DNA from: an uncultured Pirellulaceae bacterium
Lineage (GTDB): Bacteria > Planctomycetota > Planctomycetia > Pirellulales > Pirellulaceae
Direction: 5' to 3'
Length of the DNA: 47,971 nucleotides
NCBI GenBank assembly: GCA_938091115.1
Contig: CALKNI010000017.1
Location: forward strand, 1 to 47,971
In this document: in pieces, positions 637 through 5,443 of the stretch
Layout of the letters: the number at the start of each line of letters is the position of its first letter
Position numbering within the stretch: the stretch's first letter is position 1
Made by a program: the position numbers and the translations under genes
Notes under the pieces: model-generated
Told to the model about the DNA's origin: nothing
Database searches by the model: none
What the model saw: only the letters and a program-made list of their open reading frames with translations

Positions 637-1341
637 ATGAGAACATTATTGTTTGTTGTATGGATGTTAATCCCGGTCGGTGCGCTCGCCTACCACTTGG
701 GACCTGGGCAGGGGGATCTTAAGAGTGATCGCGCGGCTCAACTACTGGTTCAAGCAGATAGCTGGGTAAATGAAGAGCAATGGCCGAAGGCGATTGCAAA
801 TTATAAAGAAGCTCTGGATTTACTTCCTGAGGGTGATCTTGCGACTCAGCGGAAAACTAGGCTGGAGCTTGCCAAATGCGAAATCCACAACAGTGGTTTG
901 CCTCAGGCGAACGAAGATCTTAAAGTGCTCGTTCAGGAATTGATGGATGATCCCGAAAGTGATCCTCAGACATTATTGGAATCGCGAGTCGCATTGGCGA
1001 ATTCTCAGTTTTACATAACTTGGCTGATGAGACTTGAAGGCCGCCCTCAGGAGGCTTGGGAGCCTGAGATTACATCCTCTCAGCAGATTTATCGATTGCT
1101 TGCCGAGCAGGCGGAAAACGGTTTGGATTCTGATGTGGCTTTAAACCGCAAGTCGGACCTTGAGTCTTCGGTGAAATTAGCACGAATGGATATTGGCGAA
1201 CTGCAGGGGCTGCCCTTGCCAAGCCAATGAGCTGGCTGAAATTCATCTTCCAAACGCGGTCGCGTTGGTCAGCCCGGTAAAAAGAAAAAAGATGCGCGTG
1301 GAGCAAGTGCGGGAATTCCTGCTGATGGATCTGGCAGTTAG
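637..1341 (+). CDS. Exported TPR-like protein, candidate selenoprotein with UxxU
   Basis: ATG 637 is chosen because AAAGG at 626-630 lies six bases upstream; a 16-codon longer start at 589 lacks this. MRTLLFVVWMLIPVGALAY is a signal peptide or membrane anchor. It is followed by helical, TPR-like repeats (about residues 30-190) with typical A/L spacing. A normal reading stops at TGA 1228-1230 (197 residues). The same frame continues through that TGA, then GCT GGC, a second TGA (1237-1239), and a Ser/Lys/Gly-rich tail to TAG 1339-1341. That would give 234 residues with two selenocysteines in U-A-G-U, followed by a KKKKDARG tail. A SECIS-like hairpin lies right after the UGAs (see 1234-1274). 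A terminator follows at 1374. The precise function is unknown; a UxxU would suggest a thiol/selenol redox site outside the cytoplasm. The alternative is an ordinary stop at 1230. Confidence 0.68.
1234..1274 (+). promoter_or_regulatory. Candidate bacterial SECIS element
   Basis: Upper helix: CCA 1250-1252 pairs TGG 1266-1268, A1253 bulges, ACGC 1254-1257 pairs GCGT 1262-1265, and the apical loop is GGUC 1258-1261. Lower helix: GGCTGA 1234-1239, which contains the second UGA, pairs with TCAGCC 1269-1274 across a ten-base left-hand bulge. The first UGA ends 27 bases, and the second 18 bases, before the loop. From established knowledge, bacterial SECIS elements lie just 3' of the UGA, about 16-37 bases from UGA to loop, with G in the first loop positions; the E. 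coli fdhF element also has GGUC within its loop and a single bulged base in the stem. Folding was done by eye. Confidence 0.6.
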
Positions 1342-1373
1342 AACAATTGCTGACGCCGCAATCTGAAATTTCA

Positions 1374-1407
1374 AATACCATGCATTGGTTTGCATGGTAT
1401 TTTTTTT
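1374..1407 (+). terminator. Rho-independent terminator
   Basis: A perfect 11-bp stem, AATACCATGCA (1374-1384) with TGCATGGTATT (1391-1401), encloses a six-base loop. It runs straight into eight T residues (1400-1407). It lies 33 bases after the UAG at 1341, which fits the longer reading of the preceding gene as well as the short one. Confidence 0.85.
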
Positions 1408-1624: not shown

Positions 1625-4600
1625 ATGCATACTTCAAAAATTTGGCTCGGGATGATGTGTTTTTTTTTCACGTTGGTATTTTTGTTGTTGCCTGCAAATT
1701 CATTTTTGAATGCACAGACGAAGCCTGCCATGCGATTAGTACCGGGAGTAAAAATTCCGGCAACAATAGGGCGGGCAGTGCAGCGCCCGAAAATTCAAGA
1801 ACCAGATTTCCCTCAAGTGTTGCCGCCCGTTGATGAGCGGGGTTCTGTAGCGACTCCAGGTGAGGGTGCAGCAGTAGCTAAATCCAAGAGTGAGAGAACT
1901 AACCGACTGAAGACGCTGGCGAAGTTGAAGTTGAATCGCCTGCCATCCAATATTCTTGAAACTTGGTACAAGGACGGTGAGCGAATCGGGGAGCAGGATG
2001 TGCCGCCCGCGCCGCGACTCGCATTTCTGGCAAGCGACGCCCGATTCAAATTAGCGGTGAAGCAGCTTGAGAATGATTTTACTCTTGGGAATTGGAATGA
2101 AGTTGGTGCTTTTCTTACCAAGATTCCGTATGACAATGCAAATGTCGTCTATCGTCAAATATTAACTTCTGCTTCGAATTCCAATGCACTGACCTTTCAG
2201 GGAGGGAATGCTGTTCGTTCGCAGGTTGATCCGAGGGCACTTCAGACCCAATACCTCACGTTCGATGATCTGTTTTCCATTGCCGCCATTGCGCCCAAAA
2301 AATCAGATGCAAACAATAAGGCAGGTTTACCAGATGAGTATTTGAATTTTTTCGCTTCGGCGTTTCGCGCCACGATCGCTAGGGGCAATATGTCGGAAGA
2401 TCTAATTAAGCGTCTTCAGATGGAATTGGAAAACAAACCGGTTGTGTTTACCAAACGCCAATGTGCCAAACTTTTGTTTAGCGCAGGACTGGCTATGGAC
2501 GTTGGTGATTTTTTACCGGAGCTTGCCTTGGCGATGTCAAATAATGATCATGAAGCTCTCAATTTACTCTCTCAGTACCAATTGGCGCTCTATTCCAAAG
2601 AAAAGAAGACGGAGCATTTGGAAGGCGCTTGGAATGTGACTCAGGCGATTCTTGCCGCCGAGGATGTCGATGAAAACGAAAGAAATGCGGCTTTGGGGCG
2701 TGCGGTTGAATTGTCCTCGCAAGTTAAAACTGAGTTGGGCAATAAGTGGCTCAATGACAGTTTCGTAGCCAAGCCTGAAGTTGGAATGGAAGTGCTCGGA
2801 GCTATTGGTGTCGACACGTCGAGGTCACTGAAAACAAGTCCGCGGGACCCAAAGATGCGTTTGGATCGACTGAAGTTGCAGGACGAAGCAGTCACAGCCT
2901 TATTTCAAGCCTCACCGGAACAAGCGTCTGAGTGGAAGAAATTACTTGAGCTGTTAGCGGTAAATTGGTTGCGAGAAGCTGAGATCTCATATGCGGACGA
3001 CAAGTCGTCATCGATGGGGCCAACTATGCAGCGTGATCAGTATGGCAATATTTTCTATAGCAACACCGGGTCGTCAATTTCTCGTTCAAGGAATTTACGA
3101 TTGTCTGCAATTGGTACTGTAGATTTACTAGAAATACGTCCGTCTGAAGATTGGTTGGCTTTGGTTGCCCCAACCCTGCGTCCGAAATTTGATTCCGTTC
3201 TTGCCCAGCTGTATCTCAAAGTTTCTGAAGAAGATTTAGCGCTGCCTTATATTGAAAAACTAGGAAAAGATCACCCGGACAAAGCTGAGTCTTTAGTCAA
3301 CGAGTACATTTCGGTTTGGACCCGTAACCACAATCCTAACAGTGATCGTCGGCGCACCAATAGTTACATGTTTATGTATGGGTTTGAAAGTCGTGCCGAA
3401 TCGATTCCATTGACGCGTTCAAAACAAAATCGGAATCTTGAAGAATTGGCGGGCTTAGTGGTTCGCTTAAACAAGTTGATTGAAAACAAATTGGACGAAA
3501 AGTTGGTTGTGATGGCATTTGTTTCCTGCCACAGTACTGCCGAGGTTTACGAGTTGGACGAAATCGAGAAGGTATTTGGGCCTGTCGGAGAAATTGATTC
3601 AGAAACAATCGCTGTACTCGCGTCGTCCATGCGAAGGAATCTCGCCGGCATGTGGCGTGATGCAAAAGTTCAAAAAGATAAAAAGACGAAGCGTAAGAAG
3701 AAAGAGATTGAAAAAGAAGTTGTCGACGGCTATCTGTTAGCTCAGAGGCTTGTTGAGAATGCGATTGCCCGCGATCAAGATTCCTGGCAGTTAATTAGAA
3801 CGCAGGCGGAATTGCTGCACGATGAAAATAATTATCGGGCTGGAATTAAAAATAGTTCCGAGTTCTCACCGCGAAGAAAAGAAGCAATGGCATTGTTCCA
3901 GGCGTCCGCTAAACGGTATGCACGCCAAGTTAGACAGATGGAGCCAAGTGAGTATGTCAAGTATTCGCCATTCACTTCGTGGTTTTATGCGAGTCTTGGA
4001 GCATGTGATTTAGGTCTTATTGAGAATAAGAATCGTACCGATCCCAAGCAGGCGGCTTTGATTCGCGAAGGGATTTTATCTTTGCCGAAGGCGGTTTCTG
4101 AATTCCATATGGCTCAGTTTGCAAACTCGCTCTTCAACCGAATGAGCAGTGTAAAGCCGCAACTGAAGCATAAGTATCTTGATCTCGGTCTCTCCATTGT
4201 TGGGGATCATAAGCAGGCGAGTGAGGCCATCAAGGTCCATGAATACTACAAAGACCTAGTTAGCGAAATTCGGCTCGAAACGCGAATTGATGGAGATGCG
4301 AGAGTCGGTTTTGAACAACCGTTCGGTGTTTACGTTGACCTCGCTCATACCAAAGAAATTGAACGCGAGTCCGGTGGATTCGGGAGATATTTGCAGAACC
4401 AAAATAGCAGCGTCGCGTTCTCTTATAACTACGGTCGACCGACGAATGACTACCGCGATAAATTTGAGGAATCGGTTCGAGAGACTTTTTCTGAGCAATT
4501 TGAAGTTATGTCGGTGACGTTTCAGAAACCTGATGTTCAGTCGATCCCAAGTAATAAACCGGGCTGGCGTGTAACTCCGTATGCTTACATTTTGTTGAAG

Positions 4601-5443
4601 TCGAGAGGGCCACAGGTCGATAAGGTCCCGCCTGCTCACTTAGATTTAGATTTTTTAGATACCTCAGGCTACGCCATTTTGCCAGTTGAGTCCGCCGCCC
4701 TACCAGTTGATTCTGCTTCCGGTTTGCCGCGGCCAATAGGGAAATTATCTGTCACACAGATTTTAGATGAGAGGCAAGCGGGGGAAGGGAAATTAGTGTT
4801 GGAGATTAAGGCAAGTGCTCAAGGGTTGGTTCCCGAACTCGAATCGATCCTTTCCATTGCCCCGGATGATTTTGAAATCTCCGAAATACAAGATAACGGA
4901 GTCTCGGTTTCTCAGTTCGATCCCACGGCGCGGAAGCCAACTATTAATTCTGACCGTTCCTGGTTGGTTTCAATGAAGGCAAAACCCGCTCTTGCTGAGA
5001 AACCAGCGACATTTTCGTTTCCACAGGCAAACGTAGAAATCGAAGATCTGATTTTTCAAAGGTATAATGATGCTGACCTTGCTGTCGCGGAGGCCACGGT
5101 CGAATTGAATGCGAATTACGAAAAACGTAGTTCCGCCAAGACGGTCTGGGCTGTCATTGGAATTCTTTCATTCGGCGTTGCTGTTCTAGTTGGCGTTATC
5201 GGCTACCGAAGAAGAACTCCCGAATCGCAGGAAAAACGAGAAATCGTGCTGACTGGAAACATGTCGCCGTTTGCTGCGATTTCTATGTTGCAGGATATCT
5301 ATGACTCGGACGGCGTGAGTAACGAACGCAAAAGTGAGTTGGCGACGACAATCTCCAGGCTAGAAGCGCATTACTTCGGCTTTGAACCGTCTGGGGCCAA
5401 GCCAAACGTTGTGGAAGAGTTGCAAAAATGGACAAGTTCTTAG
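1625..5443 (+). CDS. Very large exported, membrane-anchored protein of unknown function
   Basis: 1272 residues. The N-terminus (MHTSKIWLG, then a run of F/L/V, then NAQ) is a signal peptide. A single C-terminal membrane helix (about residues 1172-1193, VWAVIGILSFGVAVLVGVIGY) is followed by RRR and a cytoplasmic tail of about 75 residues ending in an acidic helical segment. The main body is therefore outside the cytoplasm and only the tail faces in. The middle is alpha-helical and TPR-like, with a Lys-rich patch near residue 690; beta-rich segments follow from about residue 890. I recognise no catalytic motif. The Shine-Dalgarno sequence is weak; ATGs at 1652 and 1655 are alternatives but would remove the charged n-region. 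It stands alone between the terminator at 1374 and csrA. It is probably a planctomycete-specific surface or periplasmic scaffold (inference). Confidence 0.85.
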   Translation: MHTSKIWLGMMCFFFTLVFLLLPANSFLNAQTKPAMRLVPGVKIPATIGRAVQRPKIQEPDFPQVLPPVDERGSVATPGEGAAVAKSKSERTNRLKTLAKLKLNRLPSNILETWYKDGERIGEQDVPPAPRLAFLASDARFKLAVKQLENDFTLGNWNEVGAFLTKIPYDNANVVYRQILTSASNSNALTFQGGNAVRSQVDPRALQTQYLTFDDLFSIAAIAPKKSDANNKAGLPDEYLNFFASAFRATIARGNMSEDLIKRLQMELENKPVVFTKRQCAKLLFSAGLAMDVGDFLPELALAMSNNDHEALNLLSQYQLALYSKEKKTEHLEGAWNVTQAILAAEDVDENERNAALGRAVELSSQVKTELGNKWLNDSFVAKPEVGMEVLGAIGVDTSRSLKTSPRDPKMRLDRLKLQDEAVTALFQASPEQASEWKKLLELLAVNWLREAEISYADDKSSSMGPTMQRDQYGNIFYSNTGSSISRSRNLRLSAIGTVDLLEIRPSEDWLALVAPTLRPKFDSVLAQLYLKVSEEDLALPYIEKLGKDHPDKAESLVNEYISVWTRNHNPNSDRRRTNSYMFMYGFESRAESIPLTRSKQNRNLEELAGLVVRLNKLIENKLDEKLVVMAFVSCHSTAEVYELDEIEKVFGPVGEIDSETIAVLASSMRRNLAGMWRDAKVQKDKKTKRKKKEIEKEVVDGYLLAQRLVENAIARDQDSWQLIRTQAELLHDENNYRAGIKNSSEFSPRRKEAMALFQASAKRYARQVRQMEPSEYVKYSPFTSWFYASLGACDLGLIENKNRTDPKQAALIREGILSLPKAVSEFHMAQFANSLFNRMSSVKPQLKHKYLDLGLSIVGDHKQASEAIKVHEYYKDLVSEIRLETRIDGDARVGFEQPFGVYVDLAHTKEIERESGGFGRYLQNQNSSVAFSYNYGRPTNDYRDKFEESVRETFSEQFEVMSVTFQKPDVQSIPSNKPGWRVTPYAYILLKSRGPQVDKVPPAHLDLDFLDTSGYAILPVESAALPVDSASGLPRPIGKLSVTQILDERQAGEGKLVLEIKASAQGLVPELESILSIAPDDFEISEIQDNGVSVSQFDPTARKPTINSDRSWLVSMKAKPALAEKPATFSFPQANVEIEDLIFQRYNDADLAVAEATVELNANYEKRSSAKTVWAVIGILSFGVAVLVGVIGYRRRTPESQEKREIVLTGNMSPFAAISMLQDIYDSDGVSNERKSELATTISRLEAHYFGFEPSGAKPNVVEELQKWTSS

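Follow-up and report, generated by a model that had tools for sequence, protein, structure and literature searches.

The window, by which the whole stretch of 47,971 nucleotides analysed here is meant, is the entire contig C17 of a draft MAG (G000; 4.19 Mb, 88% complete). Nine close relatives were named, all of them MAGs under the labels Mariniblastus, Pirellulaceae, Planctomycetaceae or Planctomycetota. The features described below between 637 and 5443 lie on the forward (+) strand. The gene under study, at 637..1341, starts with ATG at 637 and, read at full length, encodes a putative selenoprotein of 234 residues with U198 and U201. Two in-frame TGA codons, at 1228-1230 (residue 198) and 1237-1239 (residue 201), give the order U-A-G-U and are followed by 33 sense codons up to the stop codon TAG (UAG) at 1339-1341. 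The frame claimed in the first-pass annotation, running from 637 through UGA at 1228 and 1237 and on for 33 codons to UAG at 1339, held exactly.

A hydrophobic N-terminal segment, the putative signal or anchor helix (residues 1-20, 637..696), was recognized in the sequence and modelled by AlphaFold2 as a helix at residues 2-20; near it, H20, G22, P23 and G24 were invariant in 35 homologs. Residues 22-189 (700..1203) are predicted to form an all-helical domain of the TPR type. AlphaFold2, run on ten close sequences, yielded a domain of seven helices behind the N-terminal helix and, from residue 184 on, a tail of low confidence; the mean pLDDT was 68.5. The best-ranked Foldseek matches were TPR domains, the top one with an E-value of 4.2e-3 and none below 0.001, and Pfam TPR_11 matched weakly (15.5 bits, below its cut-off). 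No family in Pfam or NCBIfam exceeded its cut-off for the selenoprotein.

The motif LPLPSQ-U-A-G-U occupies 1210..1239 and is followed by a tail (1240..1338) with the sequence NSSSKRGRVGQPGKKKKDARGASAGIPADGSGS, which is predicted to be disordered (pLDDT below 50). The tail was correctly described beforehand as Gly/Lys/Ser-rich with four Lys. Further downstream, an intrinsic-terminator-like hairpin with a T run was found at approximately 1373..1402 (−16.4 kcal/mol, z −5.76), and such a hairpin lies 3' of the long form in 8/8 genomes printed (the window's and seven congeners). The earlier suggestion that a terminator at 1374 suits the long form was thereby upheld. The next gene, at 1625..5443, encodes a large exported protein of 1272 aa, which is regarded as a partner by gene order only.

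Elsewhere in the window, TGA terminates 7 of 30 long ORFs, and the genetic code is therefore taken as standard. Because standard-code annotation stops genes of this kind at the first UGA, the motif remains hidden in such annotation.

Homologs, Sec and Cys forms, and selection

Of 147 genomes searched, 43 matched the protein (the window's genome is included in both counts), and many matches crossed one or two TGAs to a common end. From this first round, 35 full-length homologs were read, comprising 10 U-A-G-U, 12 U-x-x-T-U, 6 U-x-G-C and 7 C-x-x-C forms, with five of the last seven being CxGCC. The first motif position (198) was Sec or Cys in 35/35, the tail continued beyond it, and L192, L194, P195, Q197 and S203 around it were invariant. 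The first-pass annotation had expected CxxC in homologs, which was met in 7/7 first-round Cys forms, and had named homologs ending at the first UGA as a refuting outcome, which did not occur.

When 397 genomes of the class were searched with a profile, 78 gave a match. In these, every TGA-marked match was read, and matches without TGA were read only in part. The 42 further loci obtained (39 genomes) included 13 with one UGA, each with Cys three residues on, 28 with Cys, and one paralog with neither. The total of 77 homologs consequently comprises 22 double UGA forms, 19 single forms (UxxC), 35 Cys forms and the one with neither, so that the first position is UGA in 41 of them. The second UGA is present in 22/77, as UxxU in 10 and as UxxxU in 12. 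Two Sec residues in a CxxC-like arrangement, as proposed at the outset, are supported by these counts, but with the correction that the spacing is UxxxU rather than UxxU in 12 of these 22.

Distant homologs were left out of the 77. Their C-terminal end was visible at four of eight loci (L075, L077, L080 and L081), where the LPLPSQ-U/C motif was absent, and remained unresolved at the other four.

In a quick tree built on the part before the motif, the Sec/Cys label changed 10 times, at least four of these changes being forced by the starred branches. The tree counts are rough, since 29 of its 74 inner branches remain open. Many Cys forms have further downstream Cys, for example CQGCCSSNCQCKGKCKG in G123. 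The Sec-form tails printed hold a sole Sec-Sec or Sec-Cys pair at CxxC-like spacing, with no extra Cys. Four paralogs were seen in a single genome, G158 (L118, L115, L135 and L136): one is a Sec form, two are Cys forms almost identical to each other, and the fourth has neither residue and carries a G/E/K repeat at its end.

Selection was evaluated over eight genomes, namely that of the window and those of seven close congeners (89–95% identity) in which both TGAs occur in the identical frame. For the body, pS was 0.579, pN 0.037 and dN/dS 0.035, so that an average of 58% of the synonymous sites differed between bodies. For tail codons 202-234, pS was 0.263, pN 0.034 and dN/dS 0.106; with the SECIS part removed (codons 211-234), dN/dS was 0.064. 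These values (dN/dS 0.06–0.11) show purifying selection on the tail, and a tail dN/dS near 1, named beforehand as a refuter, was not observed. The twelve bases of the U-A-G-U codons 198-201 contained zero variable sites in the eight genomes. Given this invariance and the recurrence of the double UGA in 22 homologs, its presence is beyond chance.

The hairpin and the selenocysteine machinery

A SECIS-like core was located at 1253..1266, with a 5-bp stem (1253-1257 with 1262-1266) and the apical loop GGUC at 1258-1261, 30 nt after the first UGA and 21 nt after the second. For orientation, the GGU of E. coli fdhF lies at 21 nt. A stem of at least 5 bp was present in 41/41 UGA forms, with all five positions paired, and a GGU loop in 40/41 (GGUC in 35, GGUCC in 2, GGUCU in 2 and GGUGC in 1), the exception being one form in G380 with AGUUG. 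For the six five-base loops, the pairing register was chosen by eye. Across the UGA forms the loop lay 21–36 nt after the last UGA and 22–36 nt after the first.

The sequence CGCGGTCGC was present in 35/41 UGA forms versus 0/35 Cys forms, although in the remaining parts of the 28 Sec genes of the first round CGC makes up 22% of Arg and GGT 32% of Gly codons. The hairpin of three f23 relatives (L118, L117 and L122) differs from this common form, since another stem is used and the loop is GGUCC in one and GGUCU in two.

Covariation was assessed on 24 distinct sequences out of the 28 first-round Sec genes, with 500 shuffles. All cells (100%) were paired versus a shuffle mean of 85.9%, the covariation score was 0.523 versus 0.206 (best slid version 0.157), and 17 cells were changed on both sides versus 5.1; in none of these three measures did any of the 500 shuffles reach as high. 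The number of pairs changed on both sides (43/500 shuffles as high) and the number of further pair types (170/500) were within chance for these 24 sequences. In G012 and G014 the loop-closing pair is U-A in place of C-G.

Folding energy was less informative. The segment 1234-1274 folded at −14.3 kcal/mol (z −2.46, 5/200 shuffles as good), but three alternative cuts around it gave z-values of −1.53, −1.28 and +0.53, so that energy alone proves little. The free energy of the hairpin was no better than that of synonymous-codon shuffles (mean z −0.5), and stem-and-loop counts and covariation were therefore used. Single stems were likewise unremarkable, equal length being reached in 0.02–0.12 of synonymous resamplings, or in 0.06–0.44 with the RGR codons fixed. 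The lower stem (1234-1239 with 1269-1274) was absent from the minimum-energy folds of G024 and G021, both of the same genus. The claim of a SECIS-like hairpin at 1234-1274 accordingly held in part: the segment folds, but the conserved core is 14 nt, not 41. The Infernal-type check that had been proposed for this region found no matching Rfam model; in the window there was no Rfam match at gathering scores, and 1150-1420 gave chance matches only.

The window's genome carries selB (363.8 bits), tRNA-Sec (67.4 bits) and selD (261.4 bits), all over curated cut-offs. The gene selA was not found there, in a MAG 88% complete, nor in G003, but was present at 480–490 bits in six near congeners (G022, G008, G018, G017, G019 and G007). 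The lack of sel genes, which would have counted against the selenoprotein reading, was thus not observed for selB, selD and tRNA-Sec.

All four components, selA, selB, selD and tRNA-Sec, were found in 22 of 28 first-round Sec genomes. The other six miss one each: selA in G000 and G003, selB in G051, tRNA-Sec in G021, where selA was seen as a fragment only, and selD over the cut-off in G077 and G137; none of these is a closed genome. Over its cut-off, selB was present in 27/28 first-round and 13/13 later Sec genomes, for the latter of which selB alone was counted.

Among 14 homolog-bearing genomes without selB, 13 had the Cys form; the exception, G051, is 78% complete and has tRNA-Sec, selA and selD. 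Conversely, 22 Cys rows sit in genomes with selB. The association of the Sec form with selB gave p 1.4e-4 in a row-based Fisher test, which ignores relatedness; with relatedness allowed for, four independent pairs remained and the association was not significant.

Some further features of the machinery were noted. G002 and G029 carry tRNA-Sec over the cut-off (70.3 and 65.8 bits) without selB over the cut-off, and may be incomplete assemblies or genomes with decaying Sec systems. The selD gene at G000:C97:26762-27670 is part of a UGA-free ORF of about 740 aa, as is that of close congeners. In 10 relatives searched, the selD match contains one in-frame TGA, unlike in the window's genome.

Gene neighbourhood and a possible Bat-type operon

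In 22/22 wide loci of relatives, a member of the cluster of the 1272-aa protein lies 3' of the selenoprotein gene, at 36–86% identity to the window copy. No Pfam domain, BatD included, was found over the cut-off in the 1272-aa protein, and no BatD was detected at E-values up to 0.1 in 23 members of the cluster.

Upstream of the homolog at locus L060 are genes for MoxR (213 bits), DUF58 (116 bits), a protein without Pfam match, and two VWA proteins (58 and 44 bits). Among the 22 wide loci, 14 have the homologous MoxR cluster upstream, 10 that of DUF58, and 11 and 15 those of the first and the second VWA protein. For these counts some loci were cut by contig ends, no gene caller was used, and domains were named on L060 alone. 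In many relatives, the gene seems to occupy the place of the TPR gene in a Bat operon, after moxR-DUF58-VWA-VWA, and the published layout of the Bat operon (PMC5700661) matches this moxR-DUF58-VWA-VWA-TPR order.

In three members of the window's close group (G017, G018 and G024), genes for RecO, a YfiO-like TPR protein and LptE are found upstream instead. In these three, as in the window's genome, the VWA gene is on a separate contig, and the linkage of the selenoprotein gene to the moxR-VWA genes is lost in the close group. In G021, of the same genus and also with U-A-G-U, the VWA gene still adjoins. At the start of the window's contig, an LptE-like gene for lipopolysaccharide assembly (15-404) lies immediately upstream of the selenoprotein gene, where other relatives have VWA.

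A TPR fold combined with export was used as one criterion for a Bat TPR protein. It was met as a prediction, the fold coming from the model and export being inferred from the N-terminal hydrophobic helix only. Membership in a Bat-type system, inferred from gene order in relatives, is likely, yet it remains unproven because the large following protein shows no BatD domain. The evidence against a Bat role includes this missing domain, the linkage lost in the close group, some distant homologs devoid of the motif, and the Leptospira biflexa result given below.

The specific function of the Bat proteins had not been shown (PMC3557215). According to the same source, reducing agents gave a partial rescue of the first bat mutant (Tang et al. 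1999), and a role in reducing periplasmic proteins was put forward; deletion of batABD in Leptospira biflexa gave no oxidative-stress phenotype.

Interpretation and comparison with known systems

It is very likely (probability about 0.9) that both UGAs are read as selenocysteine. This reading rests on sequence comparison, Sec insertion itself being inferred: both UGAs are conserved as coding positions and are replaced by Cys in relatives, a covarying GGUC hairpin follows them, and the tail evolves as protein. The product would be a TPR protein, exported or anchored in the membrane, with U198 and U201 on a flexible C-terminal tail. SelB and tRNA-Sec would insert Sec twice, co-translationally, and one SECIS, with the UGAs 30 and 21 nt upstream of its loop, would serve both.

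Judging from the N-terminal helix and the model, the Sec pair may reach the envelope on a flexible arm behind the TPR scaffold. There it may cycle between diselenol and diselenide, or between selenol and selenylsulfide in the UxxC relatives. The series UxxU/UxxxU/UxxC/CxxC favours a thiol-type redox couple over a single nucleophile. The diselenide or redox site claimed in the first-pass annotation is still an inference, as there are no data on selenium or redox activity.

Gene order in relatives further suggests that the protein replaces the TPR protein of the Bat (Bacteroides aerotolerance) operon, with the tail as a putative redox arm passing electrons to oxidised envelope proteins or peroxides. 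Such a role as a redox arm in a Bat-type complex is inferred and has roughly as much against it as for it. The bolder reading, in which a single SECIS and two UGAs place a diselenide on the TPR tail of a Bat-type envelope complex, could equally prove right or wrong. If true, the Bat aerotolerance system would gain a chemical redox centre and a link to selenium, and a conserved Sec/Cys motif on the TPR component would make the reduction proposal testable residue by residue.

Among the alternatives, one that leaves Sec insertion undisputed survives best, though with a fairly low probability: the Sec/Cys tail may bind metal or carry selenium instead of forming a redox couple. The extra downstream Cys in many Cys forms resemble those of metal-binding tails, and metal binding remains possible for this reason. 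Against it, the Sec-form tails printed hold just the one Sec-Sec or Sec-Cys pair.

A second alternative, considered unlikely, is that translation mainly stops at the first UGA, with the region beyond it used for minor read-through or a selenium-dependent switch. UGA recoding in E. coli is partial, 30–40% in vivo (PMC4513850), and two UGAs in series would therefore yield much short product; the predicted TPR domain also finishes before 1228. In contrast, the 35 Cys relatives produce the tailed long form with no UGA in the way, and the tail dN/dS is low. In the switch version, low selenium would leave the short TPR protein, and this version overlaps with the preferred reading in that it includes Sec insertion.

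Much less likely is that UGA encodes another amino acid, through a changed code or selenium-free leaky read-through. The 33 open codons after the second UGA would fit; however, TGA serves as a stop elsewhere in the window, every first-round homolog without UGA has Cys at that position, and the genome has Sec machinery as well as a SECIS-like hairpin. A changed genetic code was rejected. Assembly error or a pseudogene, conceivable in a draft and incomplete MAG, was rejected and is all but excluded by the occurrence of two UGAs in 22 genomes (the window's included) and by purifying selection on both sides of the UGAs in the close group.

In a 2026 inventory of 119 prokaryotic selenoprotein families and subfamilies (PMC13188914, Table 1), UxxU occurs in three, namely a Prx-like thiol:disulfide oxidoreductase, the metal-binding protein NF041115 and the FmdB family. 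The corresponding models (NF041115, Prx-like PF00578 and FmdB TIGR02605) gave no match to the selenoprotein in NCBIfam or Pfam at E-values up to 1. No family name in the inventory refers to a TPR, Bat or planctomycete protein, a comparison made by name and model and not by sequence; on that basis, the double-Sec family is likely to be new to it. The family was not present in the relevant sections of PMC12013277, PMC9312934 and PMC2398784, and no Sec in any Bat protein is mentioned in the sections of the Bat papers bearing on it. Planctomycete selenoproteins in general, with candidates from two planctomycetes, are treated in PMC4807772. The family is unnamed in the open-access literature searched, and an earlier listing among those candidates is not excluded.

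With BatC of Bacteroides and spirochaetes, the protein shares, by prediction, the TPR type and, in relatives, the position after moxR, DUF58 and two VWA genes; unlike in Bat operons, the protein that follows shows no BatD domain.

The type case of bacterial SECIS-dependent selenoproteins is E. coli fdhF. As in the selABCD-dependent type, a short hairpin with GGU in its apical loop lies downstream of an in-frame UGA in the present family; the genome carries selB and tRNA-Sec, and homologs have Cys at the same position. The family differs in that two UGAs, 9 or 12 nt apart, precede one hairpin, and in that the predicted product combines a TPR domain with a disordered tail and is not a thioredoxin-like enzyme.

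SelL is a diselenide protein with two Sec at CxxC-like spacing. This spacing is shared with the known UxxU selenoproteins, whereas the TPR-like model, in place of a thioredoxin fold, and the UxxxU arrangement of 12 of the 22 double forms set the present family apart. It would add a rare double Sec together with a natural series of UxxU, UxxxU, UxxC and CxxC relatives. If the bolder reading is true, these selenoproteins would form a family without the thioredoxin fold, with repeated shifts among UxxU, UxxxU, UxxC and CxxC(C).
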